NCBI RefSeq assembly: GCF_000244955.1
Contig: NZ_CM001439.1
Location: 3,142,385 to 3,206,384 of the forward strand
Source: Saccharomonospora marina XMU15
GTDB taxonomy: Bacteria; Actinomycetota; Actinomycetes; Mycobacteriales; Pseudonocardiaceae
Reading direction: 5' to 3'
Length of the DNA: 64,000 bases
The notes beneath the pieces are model-generated. The model did no database searches. It was not told the DNA's origin and worked only from the letters and a program-made list of their open reading frames with translations. Within the stretch, counting starts at the first letter, position 1; every line of letters starts with the position of its first letter. A program made the translations under genes and the position numbers. Below, piece after piece: positions 25,831 to 34,513 of this stretch.

Positions 25831-26838
25831 TCAGCCTCGGCTTCGGGTCTGCCGGGCCACCTCCTCCAGCCTTCTGGCCTCGGCGGCCTGTTCGAACGGG
25901 GTGTCACCGTGCGCGCGGCGATCACCGAGCCCGGCGTAGAGCTTGGCGACCGTGGCGGAGTCGTGATGGCAGGCCAGTTCGGCCAGTTCGGGTGCAACCG
26001 TGGCGAGGATCTGGCGGAACCGGATCTCCGCGAGTGGGCCCAGCCGGTCGTAGATGCGCACGAACACCCGCTGCGCGCGCGGGCGGGCCCACTCCTTCGG
26101 CAGCAACTCGGCGGGCAGGTCCGGGTCGGTCTCGGGAAACCGCCGCCAGTCCACCCGCAACTCGGTGCGCGTCCGCAGCGCCTGCGCCGGACCGATCAGC
26201 CCTGCCTCCAGCCGCTGCAACAGCGGTTCGTACCGGTCGGCGAAGGCACGGTACTCCGCCGCGAGCGCGGTGAGGTCGAAGACTTCGCGCGGACTCCCCC
26301 TTCGCGGGCAGCCGGGCACCTCGGTGGAGCGCAGCACCGTCGCGGTGTCCACCCCCAGCTCGCTCAGCAGGTCGAGCGCCTGCTGAGCGGTGTCGTGCGG
26401 CGACACCCAGACGCCGTCGTAGAGCGCGGCGAAGCGCAGTGCCCGCAACCGGGAGCGCAGCGCGGTCCGCACACTGCGTTCCTGCTCGGGTACCGAGAAG
26501 GCCACCACCGTCCAACGGCCGTCCCATTCCGGGGCCGACGAGCCGAACGTCAGCATGCGGTGGGTTCGTTCGATGATGACCTCGGCGGTGCGCGGCGGGA
26601 TTCCGTAGGCCGTGGTGCGCCCGCTGCGAGAAGTGCTCAGCAACCCGCGTGCCGCCAGCCTGCGCATGGCGGCACGCGCACCGTCCGGGGTGACGTCGAA
26701 GTCGGCGAGCAACCGGACCAGCGCCGTGGCCGGGATGTGCTCGTCGCGCCAGTACCAGAAGTCGCCGAGCAGCGAGGTCAGCAGTAGCTGCGGCTCCGCC
26801 CCGTTCTGCCCGCGCGGGAGCTCACCGTCGGTTGTCAT
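25831..26838 (-). CDS. PaaX family transcriptional regulator
   Basis: A 335-residue PaaX-like regulator. The N-terminal winged helix is LLTSLLGDFWYWRDEHIPAT through ARAAMRRLAARGLLSTSR, the central part has GRWTVVAFSVPEQERSVRTALRSRL and the C-terminal domain has LDLLSELGV and a long helical tail. PaaX represses phenylacetate catabolism by sensing phenylacetyl-CoA; relatives sense other acyl-CoAs. GAAGGTG precedes the ATG at 26838. It is divergent from the transporter/CoA-transferase operon at 27-34.5 kb, which it presumably controls. Confidence 0.85.
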   Translation of the reverse strand: MTTDGELPRGQNGAEPQLLLTSLLGDFWYWRDEHIPATALVRLLADFDVTPDGARAAMRRLAARGLLSTSRSGRTTAYGIPPRTAEVIIERTHRMLTFGSSAPEWDGRWTVVAFSVPEQERSVRTALRSRLRALRFAALYDGVWVSPHDTAQQALDLLSELGVDTATVLRSTEVPGCPRRGSPREVFDLTALAAEYRAFADRYEPLLQRLEAGLIGPAQALRTRTELRVDWRRFPETDPDLPAELLPKEWARPRAQRVFVRIYDRLGPLAEIRFRQILATVAPELAELACHHDSATVAKLYAGLGDRRAHGDTPFEQAAEARRLEEVARQTRSRG

Positions 26839-26961
26839 CGCACCTTCGCCTCCGTTCGGCTCCCAGCAGGCAACAGCATACGGACACGACCGGACACCGA
26901 CCTGTCGCACTCAACACAACCCGACCCCCGGACCCGGCTCTTGAAAAAGACGACAGTTCGT

Positions 26962-26975
26962 GCGACGCTCGTCGC
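26962..26975. promoter_or_regulatory. Candidate PaaX operator
   Basis: A perfect dyad GCGACG-CT-CGTCGC lies 92 bp before the binding-protein start in the divergent PaaX/transporter gap. It is the clearest symmetry there. A TTGAAA hexamer (26941-26946) lies just upstream and could be a -35 element, although no good -10 follows. Confidence 0.45.
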
Positions 26976-27066
26976 CATCTTCGACAACCGGACGCCGAGC
27001 ACCATGGCGACCCGGGCCACCGACACTCACGCCTGGCACAGGCCCAACGCAGGGAGAAGCATCGCC

Positions 27067-27990
27067 ATGCGTCACCCGTCCCCACGTCATCGCATCCTCG
27101 CGATCGTCGCCTCGGCCGCACTGCTCGCCACCGCCTGCGGCGCCTCGTCCGACCCAGCGGATTCACCGGACGGCCCTGCCGCGGGACCCGGCAGCTCCGC
27201 GCTGCACGACGAACTGCCCCAGTCCGTCAAGGACGCCGGGGTGCTGCGGTTCGCGGGTGACTCCCACCCGCCTTACCGCACGGTCGGGCCGGACGGCAAG
27301 ACCGTGACCGGCATCGACAAGGACTTCCAGGACGCGCTCGGTGAGGTGCTCGGCGTGCGCACCGAGACCGTGATCGTCAGCGGCCTGCCCGCGGCACTGC
27401 AGGGCATGCTCAGCGGCCGCTACGACGCCTTCAACGGCCCCGTCAAGGCCACCGAGGAGCGCGAGCAGCAGTTCGACACGATCACCTGGATGACGACCCG
27501 GACGTCCTACGTCGTCCCCACGGGCCCCTCCTCGGGCATCGAGTCAGCAGGCGACCTGTGTGGCAAGCGGGTGGCCGTGGTCAAGGCCAGCATCGTCGAG
27601 GAGCAGCTGACCAAGTTGTCCCGGTACTGCCAGGACAACGGGAAGCAACCCGCCGAGACCATCGGGCTCGACGACACCAACGCCACCATCCTCGCGACCC
27701 GGTCCGGCCGCGCGGACGCCGCGGGCATGACGCAGGCTGCCGCCATCGACGTCACCAAGGAACAGCAGGACGCCTTCACCTACGTCACCCAGACCGACGA
27801 GCAGGGAGCCACCAGCGACCACCTCGCGCTGTTCGTGCCCAAGGACAGTGAACTGGGCCCGGTGCTGCACAAGGCTTTCCAGGAACTGTTCGCCAACGGG
27901 CGGTACCGCGAGATCATGCGGCACTGGGGACTCACCGACGTAATGGTGGAGCAGCCGCTGCTCAACGTCGCCACCACCCAGGGCCGCTGA
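27067..27990 (+). CDS. Amino-acid-type ABC transporter substrate-binding lipoprotein
   Basis: A 307-residue SBP_bac_3 family protein. The N-terminus has a signal ending in a lipobox (LLATACG). The mature domain begins ELPQSVKDAGVLRFAGDSHPPY, the usual opening of polar amino acid-binding proteins. AGGGAG lies ahead of the ATG at 27067. It is the first gene of the PaaX-adjacent operon. Because a CoA-transferase and dehydratase-family genes follow, the imported compound may be a carboxylic or amino acid that becomes a CoA thioester. Confidence 0.88.
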   Translation: MRHPSPRHRILAIVASAALLATACGASSDPADSPDGPAAGPGSSALHDELPQSVKDAGVLRFAGDSHPPYRTVGPDGKTVTGIDKDFQDALGEVLGVRTETVIVSGLPAALQGMLSGRYDAFNGPVKATEEREQQFDTITWMTTRTSYVVPTGPSSGIESAGDLCGKRVAVVKASIVEEQLTKLSRYCQDNGKQPAETIGLDDTNATILATRSGRADAAGMTQAAAIDVTKEQQDAFTYVTQTDEQGATSDHLALFVPKDSELGPVLHKAFQELFANGRYREIMRHWGLTDVMVEQPLLNVATTQGR

Positions 27991-28012
27991 GGGGCCGGAG
28001 TTGAGCAGGCTC

Positions 28013-28918
28013 ATGACGACGGTCACCCCGTCCGAGGGGATCGACGACGTCGCAACCGCCCGGCGCCGCGTACGTCCGTGGCGCTGGGTGGCTGGTGTCA
28101 CGCTGGCGGTCCTCACCGCACAGTTGCTGTGGTTCCTCGTCGGCAACCCGCGCTTCGAGTGGGACGTCGTGGCGCGGTACCTGTTCGATCCCGCGGTCCT
28201 TTCCGGACTGGCCACCACCGTGCTGCTCGCCGTGGCGGCCATGGCGATCGGCTCGCTGGTCGGCGCCCTGCTGGCACTGGCCCAGCTCAGCGACTTCGCA
28301 CCGCTTCGCTGGGCCGCCACCGCCTACGTCGGGGTCTTTCGCGGCATCCCGCCGCTGGTACAGCTCATCTTCTGGTTCAACCTCGCCTACCTGCTGCCCA
28401 GGCTGTCCATCGGCATCCCGTTCGGACCGCAGTTCGCCTCCTGGGACGCCAACCAGGTCATCACGCCGCTCACCACGGCCGTCATCGGGCTGTCACTGGT
28501 GGAGTCGGCGTATCTCGCCGAGATCATCAGGGGCGGCCTGCTCGGCGTCGACCCCGGCCAGCGGGACGCCGCGCGGGCGATGGGTTTCACACCGGCCCAG
28601 ACGTTCCTGCGGGTGGTGCTGCCGCAGGCGATGCGCGTCATCATCCCGCCGAGCGGCAGCCAGTTCATCAGCGTGTTGAAGGGGACCGCACTGGTGTCGG
28701 TGATCGCGATGGAGGATCTGCTGCACTCGGTGCAGGTGATCTACAACCGCACCTACCAGATCGTCCCGCTGCTGATCGTCGCGTGCCTGTGGTACCTGAC
28801 CGTGGTAACCCTGCTGACCATCGGCCAGCGTCGGCTCGAACGGCACTTCTCCCGAGGCCACACCAGCGGCGCCGTCACACGTCGCCGCCCGACCACATCG
28901 GACGGAGTTTCCGGATGA
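28013..28918 (+). CDS. Amino-acid-type ABC transporter permease
   Basis: A 301-residue HisM/GlnP-type permease with about six membrane segments. The N-terminal permease-family motif is LSGLATTVLLAVAAMAIGSL and the EAA loop is DAARAMGFTPAQTFLRVVLP. Only one permease is encoded, so it should form a homodimer. ATG at 28013 is chosen with GAGCAGG ahead; a TTG at 28001 is an alternative. The stop overlaps the ATPase start (ATGA). Confidence 0.88.
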   Translation: MTTVTPSEGIDDVATARRRVRPWRWVAGVTLAVLTAQLLWFLVGNPRFEWDVVARYLFDPAVLSGLATTVLLAVAAMAIGSLVGALLALAQLSDFAPLRWAATAYVGVFRGIPPLVQLIFWFNLAYLLPRLSIGIPFGPQFASWDANQVITPLTTAVIGLSLVESAYLAEIIRGGLLGVDPGQRDAARAMGFTPAQTFLRVVLPQAMRVIIPPSGSQFISVLKGTALVSVIAMEDLLHSVQVIYNRTYQIVPLLIVACLWYLTVVTLLTIGQRRLERHFSRGHTSGAVTRRRPTTSDGVSG

Positions 28919-29739
28919 GCGGAGTAAGCGCTTCGCCCGCCTGCGAACCCACGCTGCGAGTGCGGGGTGTTCACAAGACCTTCGGCGACCTGCGCGCGCT
29001 CGACGACGTCGATCTCGAGGTACGCGAAGGCGAGGTCGTCGTCGTCATCGGCCCGTCCGGGTCCGGCAAATCCACCCTGATCCGCTGCGTGCACCAACTC
29101 GAGACGATCGACGCCGGCGCCATCTACCTGGACGGCGAACTACTCGGCCACGAACGGCACGGCGCAACGCTGCGACCGCTGCCGCAACGTCGGGTAGCGG
29201 CACAGCGCCGCCGGATGAGCATGGTGTTCCAGCAGTTCAATCTGTTTCCGCATTTCACCGTGCTGCGCAACATCACGGAGGCACCGGTTCGGGTTCACGG
29301 CCGCTCCGTCGCCGAGGCCGAACGCGACGCCCGCGCGTTGCTCGAACGCGTCGGACTCGGCGACCGCGCCGACAACTACCCCCGGCAGCTGTCCGGCGGC
29401 CAGCAGCAGCGGGTCGCGATCTGCCGTGCCGTCGCCACCAGGCCGAGGATCGTGCTGTTCGACGAACCCACCAGTGCCCTCGATCCGGAACTGGTGGAGG
29501 AAGTGCTCGGCGTGATGCGCGGGCTGGCGGCAGACGGCATGACGATGATCGTGGTGACCCACGAGATGGCTTTCGCCCGCGAGGTGGCCGACCGCTGCGT
29601 GTTCATGGAGTCGGGGCGGGTCGTGGAATCCGGACCACCGCGAGAGCTGTTCGCCAATCCGGGTACCGCGAGGCTGCGCTCGTTCCTCGCCAGGCACAAC
29701 GCCGGCGCCAAGGTGTCCGATGTGGAGAGTATTTCATGA
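28915..29739 (+). CDS. Amino-acid-type ABC transporter ATP-binding protein
   Basis: A 274-residue GlnQ-type ATPase. Motifs are Walker A GPSGSGKST, Q-loop MVFQQFNLFPHFTVL, signature LSGGQQQRVAI, Walker B IVLFDEPTSALDPEL and H-loop VVTHEMAFAREV. An insertion of about ten residues between strands (GHERHGATLRPLPQRR) is slightly longer than usual. Its ATG overlaps the permease stop and its own stop overlaps the CapA-like gene start, both by 4 bp. Confidence 0.9.
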   Translation: MSGVSASPACEPTLRVRGVHKTFGDLRALDDVDLEVREGEVVVVIGPSGSGKSTLIRCVHQLETIDAGAIYLDGELLGHERHGATLRPLPQRRVAAQRRRMSMVFQQFNLFPHFTVLRNITEAPVRVHGRSVAEAERDARALLERVGLGDRADNYPRQLSGGQQQRVAICRAVATRPRIVLFDEPTSALDPELVEEVLGVMRGLAADGMTMIVVTHEMAFAREVADRCVFMESGRVVESGPPRELFANPGTARLRSFLARHNAGAKVSDVESIS

Positions 29740-30878
29740 TCACTGTCGCTTCGGTGGGCGATCTCATCCTCGACGAGCCCGATCCCTACTCGTTCCTCGC
29801 ACCTGCCGCCGAACTGCTGCGCGCTGCCGACGTGACGGTCGGCCACGTCGAGGTGCCGCACTCCACCACGACCGCACAGCACAGCACCGACGTCCCGGCA
29901 CCGCCCGCGGACCCCGCGGCACTGTCCGCCCTCGCGGAAGCCGGTTTCGACGTCGTCACCCTCGCGGGCAACCACAGCTACGACGCGGGCGAGCCGGGCA
30001 TCATCGACACCGTCGCGCACGCCCGTGCCGCCGGGCTGGCCACCACGGGAACCGGCGGCGACCTCGCACAGGCACGCACCCCCGCACTCGTCGAACGCGG
30101 TGGGCTGCGGGTGGGGGTGCTTTCCTACAACTGTGTCGGCCCGAGGGAGTCGTGGGCGACCAGCCGCAAGGCGGGCTGCGCCTACGTTCACGTGCTGACC
30201 CACTACGAGCTGGACCACGCCAGCCCGGGAGGGCCGCCGAAGGTCTACACCTTCGCCGATCCCGACAGCCTCGCCGCGATGGCCGAGGACGTGCGCAGGC
30301 TTCGTCGAAAGGCCGACGTCGTGCTCGTGTCGCTGCACAAGGGTGTCGGGCACACCCCGGCGACGCTCGCGATGTACGAGAGCCCGGTGGCCCGCGCCGC
30401 GGTCGACGCCGGGGCCGACGCGGTGTTCGGTCACCACGCACACATCATGCGCGGCGTCGAGACCTATCGCGGTAGGCCGATCTTCCACGGACTCGGCAAC
30501 TTCGTCACCGTCACCCGTGCCCTCACCCCCGGCAACGGCGAGTCCTCGGCGGAACTGCGGGACTGGGCCAAGCGGCGCAAGGAGCTGTACGGCTTCGCGC
30601 CGGACCCGGACATGCCCTGGTACCCGTTCCACCCGCAAAGCCGCAACACCGCGATCGCATGGTGCCGCTTCGACGCATCCGGTCTCGTCGAGGCGGGGTT
30701 CACGCCGTGCTGGATCGACGAGTCGGGACGGCCCGTGCCGTGCGGTGACGGCGTCACCGGCGAACGCGTCGCGGGTTACGTGGAGCGGATCACCCGCGCG
30801 GCGGGGCTGAACGGACGGTTCGTGCTCCGAGGCGCCGACGCGGTGATCGACCTGCACAGCGAAGAAAGGACAGCATGA
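29736..30878 (+). CDS. CapA family (PGA_cap) metallophosphoesterase-like protein
   Basis: A 380-residue protein of the CapA family, a calcineurin-like phosphoesterase fold. It has SVGDLIL at the start (metal Asp), LAGNHSYDAGEPG, VSLHKGVGHTP and the metal His pair in VFGHHAHIMRG. CapA proteins are known from poly-gamma-glutamate synthesis, but there is no capBC here and no signal peptide or membrane anchor, so a cytosolic hydrolase role in this catabolic operon seems more likely. It is coupled by ATGA overlaps to both neighbours. The substrate is unknown. Confidence 0.82.
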   Translation: MITVASVGDLILDEPDPYSFLAPAAELLRAADVTVGHVEVPHSTTTAQHSTDVPAPPADPAALSALAEAGFDVVTLAGNHSYDAGEPGIIDTVAHARAAGLATTGTGGDLAQARTPALVERGGLRVGVLSYNCVGPRESWATSRKAGCAYVHVLTHYELDHASPGGPPKVYTFADPDSLAAMAEDVRRLRRKADVVLVSLHKGVGHTPATLAMYESPVARAAVDAGADAVFGHHAHIMRGVETYRGRPIFHGLGNFVTVTRALTPGNGESSAELRDWAKRRKELYGFAPDPDMPWYPFHPQSRNTAIAWCRFDASGLVEAGFTPCWIDESGRPVPCGDGVTGERVAGYVERITRAAGLNGRFVLRGADAVIDLHSEERTA

Positions 30879-32113
30879 CCGACCAGCCCCTCGCGGGCCG
30901 TACCGTCATCGACCTCACCACCGCACTCGCGGGGCCGTACGCGACCCTGCTGCTCGCCGGGCTCGGCGCGACGGTGATCAAGGTCGAGAACCCGGCCACC
31001 GGCGGAGATTCCTCCCGCGACAACGCACCCTACGTCGGCCGGTCCGGACTCTCGCTGACCAGGCAGGCGGACGACGACATGTCGGTGTCCATGCTGGTGC
31101 GCGGTCGCAACAAGCTCAGCGTCACGCTCGATCTGAAGAACCCCCGCGCGCAGGCGGTGTTCGCGGACCTGGTGCGCGACGCCGACGTCGTCGTGGAGAA
31201 CTACAGCCCCGGGGTCACCCGGCGGCTCGGCATCGACTACGAAACCGTCCGCCGCATCAACCCCGGGATCGTCTACACCTCGATCAGTGGCTTCGGCGCG
31301 CAGGGTGGCCCCGGGTCGGGCAAGGCCATGGACTCGATCATCCAGGCGCTGTCCGGGGTGATGCTGACCGCGGGCGAGCCGGACGAGGGGCCGGTGCGGT
31401 TCGGGCTGCCCGTCGCCGACATGCTCGCGCCGCTGTTCGCCGTCATCGGCACGGTGTCGGCGTTGCTGCAGGCCGAGCACACCGGCGAGGGCCAGCACGT
31501 GGACGTCTCGATGTTGGGTGCGCTGACCTCACTGGTGGCGTGCGAGCCGTTCGACGCCTTCGAGGCTGTGGGCCTGCCGCTGCGGACCGGCTCGACGGTG
31601 CCGAGGCTGGCGCCGTTCGGCATCCTGCCCGCCGCGGACGGCCACCTCGCGTTGTGCGCGCCCACCGACGCCTTCGCGCACGGCGTGCTGCGCGCGATGG
31701 GCCGCGCGGAGTTGATCGACGACGATCGCTTCCGCAGCAGGGACCAGCGCGTCGCGCACGCCGACGAGCTACACGAGCTGATCCGGCTGTGGTGCCGGGA
31801 CCGACCGGTCGCCGAGGTGCTGCACGCGTTGACGGAGCAGGGGGTCCCCGCCGCGCGGGTGCGTGAACCTCGCGACGCCGTGCGCGATCCGCTCGTCCGT
31901 GAGCGGGAGGAGGTCGTGCCGGTGACGCATCCGCGCTACGGCCAGGTCGGCGACCTGGCGGCGACCGGAGTCCCCATCCGGTTCTCCTCCGCGCGAGCGG
32001 GATTCGACCGGCCCGCACCGGCACTCGGCGAGCACAACGACGCGGTGTACCGGGGGCGGCTGGGCTACAGCGAGGAACAGCTGTGCGAGCTCGCCGCCGA
32101 AGCGGTGATCTGA
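30875..32113 (+). CDS. CaiB/BaiF (class III) CoA-transferase
   Basis: A 412-residue class III CoA-transferase. Family features are LAGPYATLLLAGLGATVIKVE, the RGRNKLSVTLDLKN block, VVENYSPGV and SGFGAQGGPGSGKAMDSIIQ, whose Asp is the expected catalytic nucleophile. It would move CoA from an acyl-CoA donor to a carboxylic acid. It is coupled to the CapA-like gene (ATGA) and followed after 31 bp by the dehydratase-family pair. The order CoA-transferase plus two PF06050 subunits is that of FldABC of aromatic 2-hydroxyacid dehydration. Confidence 0.88.
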   Translation: MTDQPLAGRTVIDLTTALAGPYATLLLAGLGATVIKVENPATGGDSSRDNAPYVGRSGLSLTRQADDDMSVSMLVRGRNKLSVTLDLKNPRAQAVFADLVRDADVVVENYSPGVTRRLGIDYETVRRINPGIVYTSISGFGAQGGPGSGKAMDSIIQALSGVMLTAGEPDEGPVRFGLPVADMLAPLFAVIGTVSALLQAEHTGEGQHVDVSMLGALTSLVACEPFDAFEAVGLPLRTGSTVPRLAPFGILPAADGHLALCAPTDAFAHGVLRAMGRAELIDDDRFRSRDQRVAHADELHELIRLWCRDRPVAEVLHALTEQGVPAARVREPRDAVRDPLVREREEVVPVTHPRYGQVGDLAATGVPIRFSSARAGFDRPAPALGEHNDAVYRGRLGYSEEQLCELAAEAVI

Positions 32114-32144
32114 GGCGTTGCCGGCCGCTACGGAGAGGAGCACG

Positions 32145-33266
32145 ATGTCCGCTGCGCTGATGGCGCTGACAGGCCATGCCGAAGACCGCACGGCCGCCGC
32201 CCGCGAGTGGCGCGCGGCGGCGAAACCGGTGGTGGGCTACGTCGGTGCCGACGTGCCGGTGGAGCTGCTGACGGCCGCTGGGGTGCTGCCGCTGCGGCTG
32301 GCGGGGTCGCCGCGTGCCGACGACGGCGCGGGCGAGCGGTACCTGGGTCGCGGGCTCGACCCGGCCGTCAGGTCGATCCTGTCGCGGCTGCTGGCGGGCG
32401 ACTACGGGCAGCTCGACGGGCTGGTCGTCTCCCGCGACTGCGAGGCGTCGCTGCGACTGTTCTACGCGGTCCGGGAGTTGCGCCGGATCGAGCCTGCCAC
32501 GGCCCTGCCACCGGTGCAGCTGGTCGACGTGCTGCACCTGCCGCACCACACCACCACGCGGTACGTGCTGGCGAAGGTGCGGCAGCTGCGGGCGACCCTG
32601 GAAGGCTGGGTCGGGCATGCCATCGCCGATGCCGATCTCACGCGGGCCGTCGTCGCCCACGACCGGCTGCGCGACCTGCTCACCGAGGTGGCGCGGCTGC
32701 GAAGGCGGCAGCCAGCACGGCTGACGGGGACCCAGGCGCTGTCGGTGGTTGCCGCCACCACCGCGCTGCCCGTCGAACGCGCCACAGAACTGCTGCAACG
32801 CCTGCTGGCCGAGGCGGGGTCGCTGCCCGAGGCCGAGGGTCACCGCGTGTTCCTGACCGGAAGCTCCCACGACTCCCCCGACGTCTACGCGGCACTGGAA
32901 GCGGCCGGACTGCTGATCGTCGGAGAGGACCACGACTGGGGCGATCTGCTCTTCCACCGCCGGGTGGGCGGCAGCACCGAGTTGGCGCTCGCGGAGCGAT
33001 ACCAGCACAACGGGCCGTCGGCGGCGCGGGCGTCCATCCGGCGGCGTGCCGCGCACACGGCCGAGGCCGCCTCGGCCTGCGGTGCCCGCGCGCTGCTGTG
33101 CTACGCCCGCCGCCACGACGACGGCCCGCCGTGGGACTTTCCCGCACAGCGGGCGGCCACCGGACTGCCCGCCGTGTCGCTGGAGCGCCAGCCCTACGGC
33201 GCACTCGACATCGACGCGAGAGCGGTCGCGGCGCGGCTGCGCGTGACCGAGGAGGTGGCTCGGTGA
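32145..33266 (+). CDS. 2-hydroxyacyl-CoA dehydratase family subunit 1 (atypical)
   Basis: A 373-residue PF06050 (HgdB/FldB/BcrB) family protein. It keeps VGYVGADVPVELLTAAGVLPLRL, LDGLVVSRDCEASLRLFYAV and the C-terminal ALLCYARRHDDGPPWDFPA. These two blocks retain cysteines (C99 and C319; C312 is extra), but the first usual Cys position, normally a Cys-x-x-x-Arg, reads LDPAVRS here. GGAGAGGAG precedes the ATG at 32145. It is coupled to subunit 2 (GTGA). Normal relatives bind a [4Fe-4S] cluster and need an ATP-driven activator, not seen here. Confidence 0.8.
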   Translation: MSAALMALTGHAEDRTAAAREWRAAAKPVVGYVGADVPVELLTAAGVLPLRLAGSPRADDGAGERYLGRGLDPAVRSILSRLLAGDYGQLDGLVVSRDCEASLRLFYAVRELRRIEPATALPPVQLVDVLHLPHHTTTRYVLAKVRQLRATLEGWVGHAIADADLTRAVVAHDRLRDLLTEVARLRRRQPARLTGTQALSVVAATTALPVERATELLQRLLAEAGSLPEAEGHRVFLTGSSHDSPDVYAALEAAGLLIVGEDHDWGDLLFHRRVGGSTELALAERYQHNGPSAARASIRRRAAHTAEAASACGARALLCYARRHDDGPPWDFPAQRAATGLPAVSLERQPYGALDIDARAVAARLRVTEEVAR

Positions 33267-34513
33267 GCGCACGACTGGACACCGCACGCGCGGCGACGAC
33301 CTACCAGCGGCAGTGGTTCGCCGAGCTGCGACGGCGGGTCGAGGCCGGCGAGCGTTTCGCGCTCGTCAACGCCGACGCGCCGCAGGAGATCCTTCGTGCG
33401 ATGGGCATCCCCTACGTCGTCAACCAGTGGTGGGCCTCGATCGTCGCCGCGAAGGGCCGCACCCAGGACTACCTCGCGCTGCTGCGGCAACGGGGTTACC
33501 CCGACTACGTCGAGCAGTACAGCTCGACCTCGCTGGCCTCGGTGTTCGATCCGGCCCCGGATTCCGCACCGTGGGGTGGGCTGCCGCAACCGTCGATCGT
33601 GCTCGCCGAGACGACGGGTGACGCCTCCCGCAAGATCTTCGACATCTGGGACGAGCAACCGGGGACGACCTTCTTCGCGCTGGAGAGCGCCGCGGAGAAC
33701 GACGTGCCGGTGCACTGGTGGGAGCTGATGCCGCGGCGGTGGGAGGAGGCCATCGGCAGCGACCGGCTCGACCTGCTCGTCGGCGAGTTGGAAGGGCTGA
33801 TCCGGTTCCTGGAACAGACCACCGGCCTGGTGTTCTCCGCCACCAGGTTCGCCCAGGTCATGGACCTTGTGAACGAGCAGCAGGAGTGGAACCGGCGAAC
33901 CCGCGACCTGATCGCCAGGGCCCGCCCGTGCCCGCTCACCGTGACCGACAGCATCCCCAGCGTGATGGTTCCGCAGTGGCACCGGGGCACCACCTGGGCA
34001 CGGGACGCGGCACGCGCGTTGCACGACGAGGTGACGCGGCGGGTGGCCGACGGGACCGCCGTGTGCCGGGACGAGCGGGCGCGGCTGATGTGGATCGGCC
34101 GTGGCCTGTGGTTCGACCTGGACTTCTACCGGCGGTTCCAGGAAAGCCACGGTGCGGTGTTCGTGTGGTCGATGTACCTGGCGATCGCCGCCGACGGCTA
34201 CCTGCGATACGGCGACGACCCGCTGCGGGCGCTGGCGGCCCGCTTCGCCGCGTTCTCCGACCAGTTGTACACGCCGCCGTGGTCGGCGCAGTGGTACGTG
34301 AAGGAGGCAAGGCTGCACGGTGTGGACGGCGTCGTGCACCTGGTTTCCGACGACGCGAGGGGCAGCTACTTCACCACCGGCGCGCTGGAGGCGGCGGGCA
34401 TTCCGGTGTTGGAGGTACATGCCGACAACGTCGACGCCCGCGGCACCGATCCCGCCGCCCTCACCGACGCGGTGGCCGACTGGCTGGAGCACCGGATACT
34501 GCCGCGCGGCTGA
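33263..34513 (+). CDS. 2-hydroxyacyl-CoA dehydratase family subunit 2 (atypical, cluster cysteines missing)
   Basis: A 416-residue PF06050 protein of the HgdA/FldC/BcrC type. The fold is recognisable: ILRAMGIPYVVNQWWASIVA, LPQPSIVLAETTGDASRKIF, VFSATRFAQVMDLVNEQQEWN and GVDGVVHLVSDDARGSY. At the three places where the family normally has cluster-binding Cys, this protein has Tyr/Ser (VEQYSS), TTGDAS and DDARGS. Only C223 and C268 remain, in other positions. It starts at a GTG overlapping the stop of subunit 1 and ends the operon, followed by repeat array B. It may be cluster-free or repurposed. Confidence 0.78.
   Translation: MSARLDTARAATTYQRQWFAELRRRVEAGERFALVNADAPQEILRAMGIPYVVNQWWASIVAAKGRTQDYLALLRQRGYPDYVEQYSSTSLASVFDPAPDSAPWGGLPQPSIVLAETTGDASRKIFDIWDEQPGTTFFALESAAENDVPVHWWELMPRRWEEAIGSDRLDLLVGELEGLIRFLEQTTGLVFSATRFAQVMDLVNEQQEWNRRTRDLIARARPCPLTVTDSIPSVMVPQWHRGTTWARDAARALHDEVTRRVADGTAVCRDERARLMWIGRGLWFDLDFYRRFQESHGAVFVWSMYLAIAADGYLRYGDDPLRALAARFAAFSDQLYTPPWSAQWYVKEARLHGVDGVVHLVSDDARGSYFTTGALEAAGIPVLEVHADNVDARGTDPAALTDAVADWLEHRILPRG

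Follow-up and report, generated by a model that had tools for sequence, protein, structure and literature searches.

The benzoyl-CoA reductase/2-hydroxyacyl-CoA dehydratase (BCR/HAD) family is known for an extreme radical chemistry, which relies on oxygen-sensitive iron-sulfur (Fe-S) clusters and on an ATP-driven activator. Among the closest described systems is FldABC, the (R)-phenyllactate dehydratase complex, in which a class III coenzyme A (CoA) transferase is followed by two subunits of the PF06050 family. A similar arrangement is found in Saccharomonospora marina XMU15, in an operon at positions 27067-34513 of a 64,000-nucleotide stretch of its genome (contig NZ_CM001439.1, 3,142,385 to 3,206,384), here called the window. 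The last two genes of this operon, S1 and S2, encode PF06050 subunits. Three defining features of a radical dehydratase, namely the set of cluster cysteines in S2, that in S1 and the activator, were tested and none of them was found; therefore, the pair should not be filed as such an enzyme.

Two further systems are relevant here. The (R)-2-hydroxyisocaproyl-CoA dehydratase HadBC (structure 3o3m) uses two Fe-S clusters and an ATP-driven activator (in part after PMC11971306). In the class I benzoyl-CoA reductase BzdNO (8s02), the double-cubane cluster of BzdN is held by Cys36, Cys73, Cys100, Cys263, Cys293 and Cys327; in the crystal structure, the thioester oxygen is held by Tyr97 and Tyr298 of BzdO, whose Glu65 and His131 lie on either side of the cluster water (PMC11971306). 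The same source presents the BCR/HAD family as a series of sub-cluster losses that created new functions, and it offers a precedent for a non-radical reaction in the desulfidase TudS, a one-domain relative. A [4Fe-5S] cluster is still used by TudS (PMC11971306), whereas the ligands are gone in the pair studied here.

The sequence-only reading of the window had proposed seven rightward genes forming an operon with the FldABC-like order CoA-transferase, subunit, subunit. Both statements stand, since Pfam gives the same gene names at the same positions (Table 1), and a divergent PaaX-like gene adjoins. In contrast to FldABC, however, there is no FldI-type activator, S2 has no cluster cysteine, S1 keeps a single core cysteine, and an ABC importer and a CapA-like gene are added. 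Both subunits belong to PF06050, with profile scores above the curated cut-off and the fold of the HadBC and BzdNO subunits in high-confidence AlphaFold2 (AF2) models, for which each protein was modelled singly as a monomer. The S1 model (predicted local distance difference test, pLDDT, 95.9) has BzdN, at a template-modelling (TM) score of 0.89, and HadC as its best Foldseek matches, while those of the S2 model (pLDDT 91.1) are MbdO and HadB; S2 aligns with HadB (3o3m_A) at a VIA-align Z of 41.5 and a root-mean-square deviation of 2.2 over 387 residues. On sequence and predicted fold, S1 is thus assigned as the HadC/BzdN-type half and S2 as the HadB/BzdO-type active-site half. The likeness to HadBC ends with the fold, because neither the ligands of its two clusters nor its activator are present here.

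For comparison, genome contigs were searched with S2 and the best 80 of 112 loci were used, from Actinomycetota, Chloroflexota and Bacillota. The catalytic [4Fe-4S] cluster of the HadB/BzdO-type subunit requires three cysteines. Their positions in S2 were mapped with MAFFT against four canonical, cysteine-bearing S2-type proteins of genomes with activators, the first site being checked by hhalign and the first two by phmmer to MbdO, and counts refer to the window protein plus 79 of the 80 loci (L097 was excluded for its length). The host protein keeps none of them, as the sequence-only reading had stated: Glu84 and Gly119 occupy the first two sites, and the third is a gap beside D364/A365 (a gap in 76 of the 80 proteins). 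Two other cysteines, C223 and C268, were considered as ligands and rejected, for they fall outside the canonical columns and are Cys in 50/80 and 58/80 proteins, respectively. All three cysteines are kept in four Chloroflexota and Bacillota proteins (L104, L105, L106 and L110), and two sphingomonad plasmid proteins (L111 and L112), which like those of Rhizobium were examined separately from the counts, have Cys/Cys/Asn.

In S1, the ligand positions were mapped with MAFFT against six cysteine-bearing PF06050 proteins from activator-having genomes, with hhalign, and with phmmer to BzdN, as cross-checks. The counts cover the window and 73 loci, after exclusion of L066, L067, L070, L106 and L107 (wrong length) and of L077 and L104 (no S1 hit). 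The electron-relay cysteine set is not present in the host protein. It had been thought that S1 keeps two of the three core cysteines, but only C99 qualifies; C312 aligns with no canonical cysteine, and the first and third sites are Asp72 and Asp325. No cysteine is found at any of the three core columns in 15 of the 74 proteins. With respect to BzdN, Cys73, Cys263 and Cys327 are replaced by Asp, Cys36 by Gly34 (74/74, phmmer alignment), and Cys293 falls in a stretch judged unconserved from the phmmer alignment. These losses are patterned rather than a simple decay, given that Asp stands at three double-cubane positions in 66 to 74 of the 74 aligned proteins. Around them, D36, D98, D128, H131, D262, H263, R51, R110 and R322 are kept in 71 to 74 of 74. 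At the three core sites, S1 is Pro/Asp/Asp in the sphingomonads L111 and L112 and Glu/Ser/Asp in the Rhizobium plasmid L114, so that only Asp325 is Asp in every S1 protein examined.

The host genome is complete, consisting of one contig of 5.97 Mb with exactly two PF06050 genes, and it contains no match to the profile of the ASKHA-type activator (TIGR00241, 0 matches); the lack of an activator, which had been noted for the operon, therefore extends to the whole genome. A broader search with PF01869 gave two matches above the cut-off and one below. The PF01869 proteins were discarded as activators, since the translations around the two, read by eye with no profile run, suggest sugar kinases beside SIS and GH4-like genes. 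The TIGR00241 search covered 38 of the genomes in which the loci lie, including the host's as the only one known to be complete, with one or a few loci sampled per genus and L092 excluded. Any match was found in 5/38 of these S2-bearing genomes and a match above the cut-off in 4/38, leaving 34/38 without. An activator linked to this locus in relatives, which had been named in advance as evidence that would overturn the proposal, was not found in any of these 38 genomes with TIGR00241. R. jostii has two activators, both next to other PF06050 pairs on contig C3; cysteines are present in the S1-type members of those pairs. Its cysteine-poor pair lies on C23. In A. acididurans (G200), the activator adjoins a PF06050 protein that groups with the R. 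jostii C3 subunits. The Litchfieldia and Evansella genomes have two PF06050 matches each and no TIGR00241 match, although S2 there has all three cysteines; hence, if they contain a cluster, the usual activator probably does not charge it. As a separate observation, on a plasmid of Rhizobium leguminosarum, an organism usually grown in air, two genes annotated as activases follow a PF06050 pair that has cysteines (L113:9848-15276).

A conventional radical 2-hydroxyacyl-CoA dehydratase relying on an activator encoded far away would agree with the FldABC gene order and with PF06050 membership. Such a reading is close to refuted, given that no activator above the cut-off exists in the host or in 34 of the 38 genomes, that the R. 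jostii activators sit beside PF06050 pairs of their own on another contig than the cysteine-poor pair, and that the S2 active site has no cysteines.

In S2, Tyr86 and Tyr305 stand at the places of BzdO Tyr97 and Tyr298, and Gln55 replaces Glu65 and, less surely, Asp38 replaces Trp46; all four are invariant (80/80), according to a hand mapping from the phmmer and MAFFT alignments. Since the tyrosines are retained and the other two residues replaced, acyl-CoA binding looks to be kept in S2 and the catalytic groups to be changed. In all, 124 S2 positions are conserved in at least 95% of the 80 proteins, several of them at substrate-pocket positions. The ratio of non-synonymous to synonymous substitution rates (dN/dS; Nei-Gojobori, 14 hand-picked close pairs, rough in GC-rich DNA and saturated for S1 and S2 in the pair L105/L110) is 0.06-0.19 for S2 (13 pairs), 0.03-0.28 for the CoA-transferase (14 pairs; 0.04-0.28 over the 13 pairs usable for S2) and 0.10-0.27 for CapA (12 pairs). 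The cassette genes are maintained, and S2 is under strong purifying selection.

With moderate confidence, S1-S2 is regarded as a cluster-free, non-radical acyl-CoA enzyme of lyase or isomerase type, and its operon as catabolic. Its chemistry probably differs from that of the radical dehydratases and is probably oxygen-tolerant. The operon would import an organic acid, either as such or as its ester or amide, under a PaaX-like regulator and direct it to CoA-thioester catabolism, with the CoA-transferase loading the acid onto CoA. The putative S1-S2 heterodimer, of BCR/HAD fold, would still bind acyl-CoA in S2 after the loss of both Fe-S clusters and of the ATP-driven activator. It would then act on the acyl-CoA by polar rather than radical chemistry, through elimination/hydration or isomerisation. 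For this, S2 would offer acid/base residues that are new and invariant, and a carboxylate/histidine site at the place of the former electron-relay cluster in S1 might be used as well. The CapA-like enzyme would precede the CoA-transferase or act together with it; by analogy with MslH, it is perhaps a C-alpha epimerase. If so, this branch would extend the series of cluster losses to zero clusters with intermediates still alive, and it makes testable whether the BCR/HAD fold catalyses acyl-CoA chemistry without iron. There is also a practical side: annotation pipelines are likely to name its members 2-hydroxyacyl-CoA dehydratases, as has already happened in the plasmid records of the two sphingomonad S2 proteins.

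The sequence-only reading had placed a cluster-free or oxygen-tolerant reaction beside a non-catalytic role, and only the former is kept as the leading explanation. The latter would make S1-S2 an acyl-CoA-binding scaffold or chaperone for the CoA-transferase and its thioester, the chemistry being left to the CoA-transferase and CapA. FldBC does associate with FldA, the cluster ligands are gone, the coupling to the CoA-transferase is tight (at most 3 kb away on the same strand in 77/80 loci), and in the sphingomonad L111 the genes for a shortened S1 (295 residues), a 694-residue CoA-transferase and S2 overlap in that order. It is nevertheless unlikely: a scaffold hardly explains the conserved pocket positions of S2, a dN/dS about as low as that of the CoA-transferase or the retained thioester-tyrosine positions, and the specific Asp replacements in S1 do not resemble free drift. 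Less probable still is an unusual Fe-S cluster in S1, with Asp, Cys and Asp as ligands, which would leave the pair a redox enzyme served by a different electron donor. Asp replaces one Cys at the NB cluster of protochlorophyllide reductase, and Cys99 is present in 59/74 S1 proteins, but the 15 proteins that lack any core cysteine, the one with Asn in the Asp72 column, and the 34 of 38 genomes with no activator above the cut-off (other electron donors not having been searched for) make this improbable.

A different proposal places the catalytic site in S1, whose former cluster cavity would hold one or two divalent metal ions on Asp and His, S2 merely presenting the acyl-CoA. D36, D72, D98, D128, H131, D262, H263 and D325 are conserved as Asp or His in 71 to 74 of 74 proteins and D264 in 66, and D72, C99, D264 and D325 coincide with known cluster-ligand positions of BzdN. 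It seems rather unlikely, however, since S1 is under weaker constraint than S2, most of the set is missing from the sphingomonad S1 proteins, and buried salt bridges to R51, R110 and R322 would account equally well for the same residues. Moreover, in BzdO, and according to the description of HadB, it is the S2-type subunit that houses the substrate and the catalytic cluster (PMC11971306). A related evolutionary scheme can be entertained only tentatively. According to it, the electron-relay cluster of the HadC/BzdN-type half became an Asp-rich divalent-metal site (D72, D264 and D325, with D98, D128, H131, D262 and H263) and the catalytic cluster was lost afterwards, resulting in an aerobic non-radical acyl-CoA lyase or isomerase. 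The living lineages would then represent its steps: all cysteines present, next Asp in S1 with three cysteines in S2 (Bacillota and Chloroflexota), and finally no cysteine in S2 (Actinomycetota).

Several points weigh against the cluster-free, non-radical enzyme favoured here. For a plain 2-hydroxyacyl-CoA, direct elimination that does not pass through a radical is difficult chemistry, and if that is the substrate, the proposal fails. In the literature searched, with subscription papers and preprints mostly outside its coverage, no biochemistry for any member was found, and none of the clues to the substrate is decisive. The thioester tyrosine places are Phe or Leu in two of the four canonical S2-type proteins, so they follow no family rule. 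The closeness of the S1 Asp/His residues in one site is presumed from homology. The sphingomonad S1 has no Asp-His-Asp motif; the full Asp/His set belongs to the Actinomycetota, Chloroflexota and Bacillota branch, partly also to Rhizobium, and is not universal. S1, at a dN/dS of 0.16-0.40 (13 pairs), evolves under weaker constraint than S2, in keeping with a supporting role. The S1 of L104 is only a C-terminal piece and the hits in L066 and L067 are partial (split), so that some copies are possibly broken or the result of misassembly. The wider clade is not uniform: two S2 cysteines are kept in sphingomonads and three in the four Bacillota and Chloroflexota proteins, and part of it may still hold a cluster. 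The S2 of Rhizobium L114 (Pro/Gly/Asp) has no cysteines while its sister rows keep two, so that the loss of the cysteines from S2 probably happened repeatedly. Among the rows listed by VIA-align for S2, those from outside the BCR/HAD family have a Z of no more than 7.7. Finally, the cassette is patchy and accessory: a strong S2 match (E below 1e-200) occurs in 19/200 genomes of the host's family, the host included (23 at E <= 0.001), and S2 at E <= 1e-60 in 3/396 genomes of the phylum, again with the host, and the one same-genus genome listed (G044) lacks S2.

The order of events was approached with a tree of 42 S2-type rows, whose very long branches to the canonical rows raised a program warning and render the outer placements tentative. 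The cassette S2 family forms one clade apart from the canonical proteins (100/99), in which sphingomonad and Rhizobium rows are outermost (93/59), followed by the three-cysteine Bacillota and Chloroflexota rows and then by the cysteine-free ones (100/97). Since S1 Asp325 is present in every lineage seen, S1 would have changed first and S2 would have lost its cluster later.

Table 1. Features of the operon and of its upstream region in the window, with the residues at the cluster-ligand positions of S1 and S2.
Feature	Position	Strand	Support
PaaX-family regulator gene, divergent (PaaX-like)	25831..26910	-	TIGR02277 E 2e-36, 126 bits
Divergent promoter region	26911..27066	none	CGTGCGACGCTCG at 26959; inverted arms GTCGCCAT/ATGGCGAC at 26971-26978 and 27004-27011
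Solute-binding lipoprotein, polar-amino-acid type, SBP_bac_3	27067..27990	+	PF00497 E 5e-16; lipobox-like LATAC in signal
ABC permease, His/Gln/ectoine type, BPD_transp_1	28001..28918	+	PF00528 E 3e-21; HEQRo_perm_3TM over cut-off
ABC ATPase, EhuA/GlnQ-like, ABC_tran	28915..29739	+	PF00005; ehuA 311.5 bits against a cut-off of 345.4
CapA-like metallo-enzyme, PGA_cap	29736..30878	+	PF09587 E 2e-56
Class III CoA-transferase, CoA_transf_3	30875..32113	+	PF02515 E 8e-110, 367.8 bits
S1, HadC/BzdN-type PF06050 (HGD-D) subunit	32145..33266	+	PF06050 128.2 bits against a cut-off of 28.4
S1 Asp72, at BzdN Cys73 / canonical Cys1	32358..32360	+	73/74 Asp, 1 Asn
S1 Cys99, at BzdN Cys100 / canonical Cys2	32439..32441	+	59 Cys, 13 Ser, 1 Thr, 1 Asn (n=74)
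S1 Asp262-His263-Asp264, Asp264 at BzdN Cys263	32928..32936	+	D262 73/74, H263 73/74, D264 66/74
S1 Asp325, at BzdN Cys327 / canonical Cys3	33117..33119	+	74/74 Asp; also Asp in L106, L111, L112, L114
S2, HadB/BzdO-type PF06050 (HGD-D) subunit, without cluster cysteines	33263..34513	+	PF06050 151.4 bits against a cut-off of 28.4
S2 Glu84, at canonical Cys1; Tyr86, at BzdO Tyr97	33512..33520	+	Position 84: 59 E, 8 R, 6 L, 4 C, 2 D, 1 Y (n=80); Y86 80/80
S2 Gly119, at canonical Cys2	33617..33619	+	75 G, 4 C, 1 A (n=80); hhalign gap beside Gly119, no Cys either way

The genes are closely packed. Of the five 4-bp or near junctions proposed earlier, four are exact 4-bp overlaps (28915/28918, 29736/29739, 30875/30878 and 33263/33266); the remaining spacings are 10 bp between binding protein and permease, provided that TTG 28001 is the start, and 31 bp between the CoA-transferase stop and the most likely S1 start, ATG 32145, which is preceded by GGAGAGGAG. 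An alternative S1 start at TTG 32118 would reduce the latter to 4 bp. The closest solved relatives of the binding protein point to general amino-acid types only.

The CoA-transferase is of class III, as indicated by its PF02515 match and by Asp182 (PVAD motif), which by comparison with formyl-CoA transferase is presumably the catalytic Asp and is found in at least 97% of 78 proteins. In the CapA-like enzyme, D9, E39, N79, H80, D83, H201, H234 and H236 are conserved in at least 97% of 65 proteins, and the nearest solved structure by sequence is MslH (8gq9, E 3.4e-25). According to PMC10406935, MslH is a Ca-dependent C-alpha epimerase of a lasso peptide, with a Ca site formed by Glu44, Asn87, His259 and His261 and the dyads His88/Asp91 and His295/Asp11. 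CapA E39, N79, H80, D83, H201 and H236 correspond to MslH Glu44, Asn87, His88, Asp91, His259 and His295; D9 corresponds to Asp11 by motif only, outside the aligned stretch, which gives seven of the eight key residues reported there. Nonetheless, the Ca ligand His261 is replaced by Gly203, and the additional conserved His234 forms an HxH pair like that of the classical two-metal phosphoesterases, so that an epimerase is not singled out. The MslH profile NF038314 gives 115 bits against 700, and the matched residues also mark metallophosphoesterases. Epimerase, phosphoesterase and amidase are therefore all candidate roles on residue conservation.

A CapA-like gene inside such an operon had seemed unexpected, but it turns out to be a recurrent part of the cassette. 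Within the fetched stretches, where some misses are due to short contigs, S1 is present in 77 of the 80 loci, the CoA-transferase in 77 and CapA in 68. A block that recurs in 80 loci (the best of 112) from three phyla is not a chance arrangement. The importer is of the His type in 49/80 loci, and two or more Dpp-type ATPases are found in 18/80; because the transporter varies while the enzymes stay, the latter are taken as the core of the cassette. On two sphingomonad plasmids, for instance, S2 is accompanied by CapA, a shortened S1, a CoA-transferase of roughly 700 residues and a TRAP transporter. The Rhizobium plasmid L114 (5945-8517) has S1 and S2 with two CoA-transferases and with MmgE/PrpD and mandelate-racemase-like genes; no CapA match was found in its fetched stretch, and these last two genes could possibly substitute for CapA as an epimerase. 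No description of this conserved catabolic cassette, patchy over several phyla, was recognised in the literature searched.

Variants of the gene structure were also seen. The 694-residue CoA-transferase of L111 (12884-14965) has an extra N-terminal part and two PF02515 stretches, with a second CoA-transferase gene downstream, and L112 has a similar layout by annotation. In a Bacillota metagenome-assembled genome (L106:8774-11254), S1 and S2 lie in one 827-residue frame, with Asp/Ser/Asp in S1 and Cys/Cys/Cys in S2, representing either a natural fusion or a lost stop codon.

Other genes recur near the cassette. A P450 type shared by sphingomonads and actinomycetes, with 48-53% identity to an L111 protein (L111:1574-2785) occurs in 16/80 loci and in the two sphingomonad plasmids (a further weak match, of 26%, is in L074), a CocE/NonD esterase in 17/80 loci and the same two plasmids, and an enol-lactonase-like hydrolase in 16/80 loci. 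None of these three types was found in the window in that search. The window's own cytochrome P450 (23638-24951, minus strand) was rejected as a cassette part, since it matched none of the other loci searched and the recurring P450 is of the L111 type. In two Bacillota loci, a 3-hydroxyacyl-CoA dehydrogenase and an acyl-CoA ligase are present in addition, and one of these loci also has an enoyl-CoA hydratase. As raw recurrence with no chance control, the linked genes suggest ester hydrolysis and beta-oxidation-like steps around the core.

With regard to regulation, the divergent gene lies below the equivalog cut-off of TIGR02277 (126 vs 264.55 bits) and can be called PaaX-like only, not PaaX. 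A match over more than half of the query is found in 57/80 loci, at 40% identity or higher in 51/80. In the region between this gene and the importer, the element CGTGCGACGCTCG (window 26959-26971) is a candidate regulator site, to which an operator role may be ascribed because related 8-mers recur: GCGTCGCA and CGAGCGTC, or their complements, occur in 22 of 34 upstream regions, a raw count with no background model.

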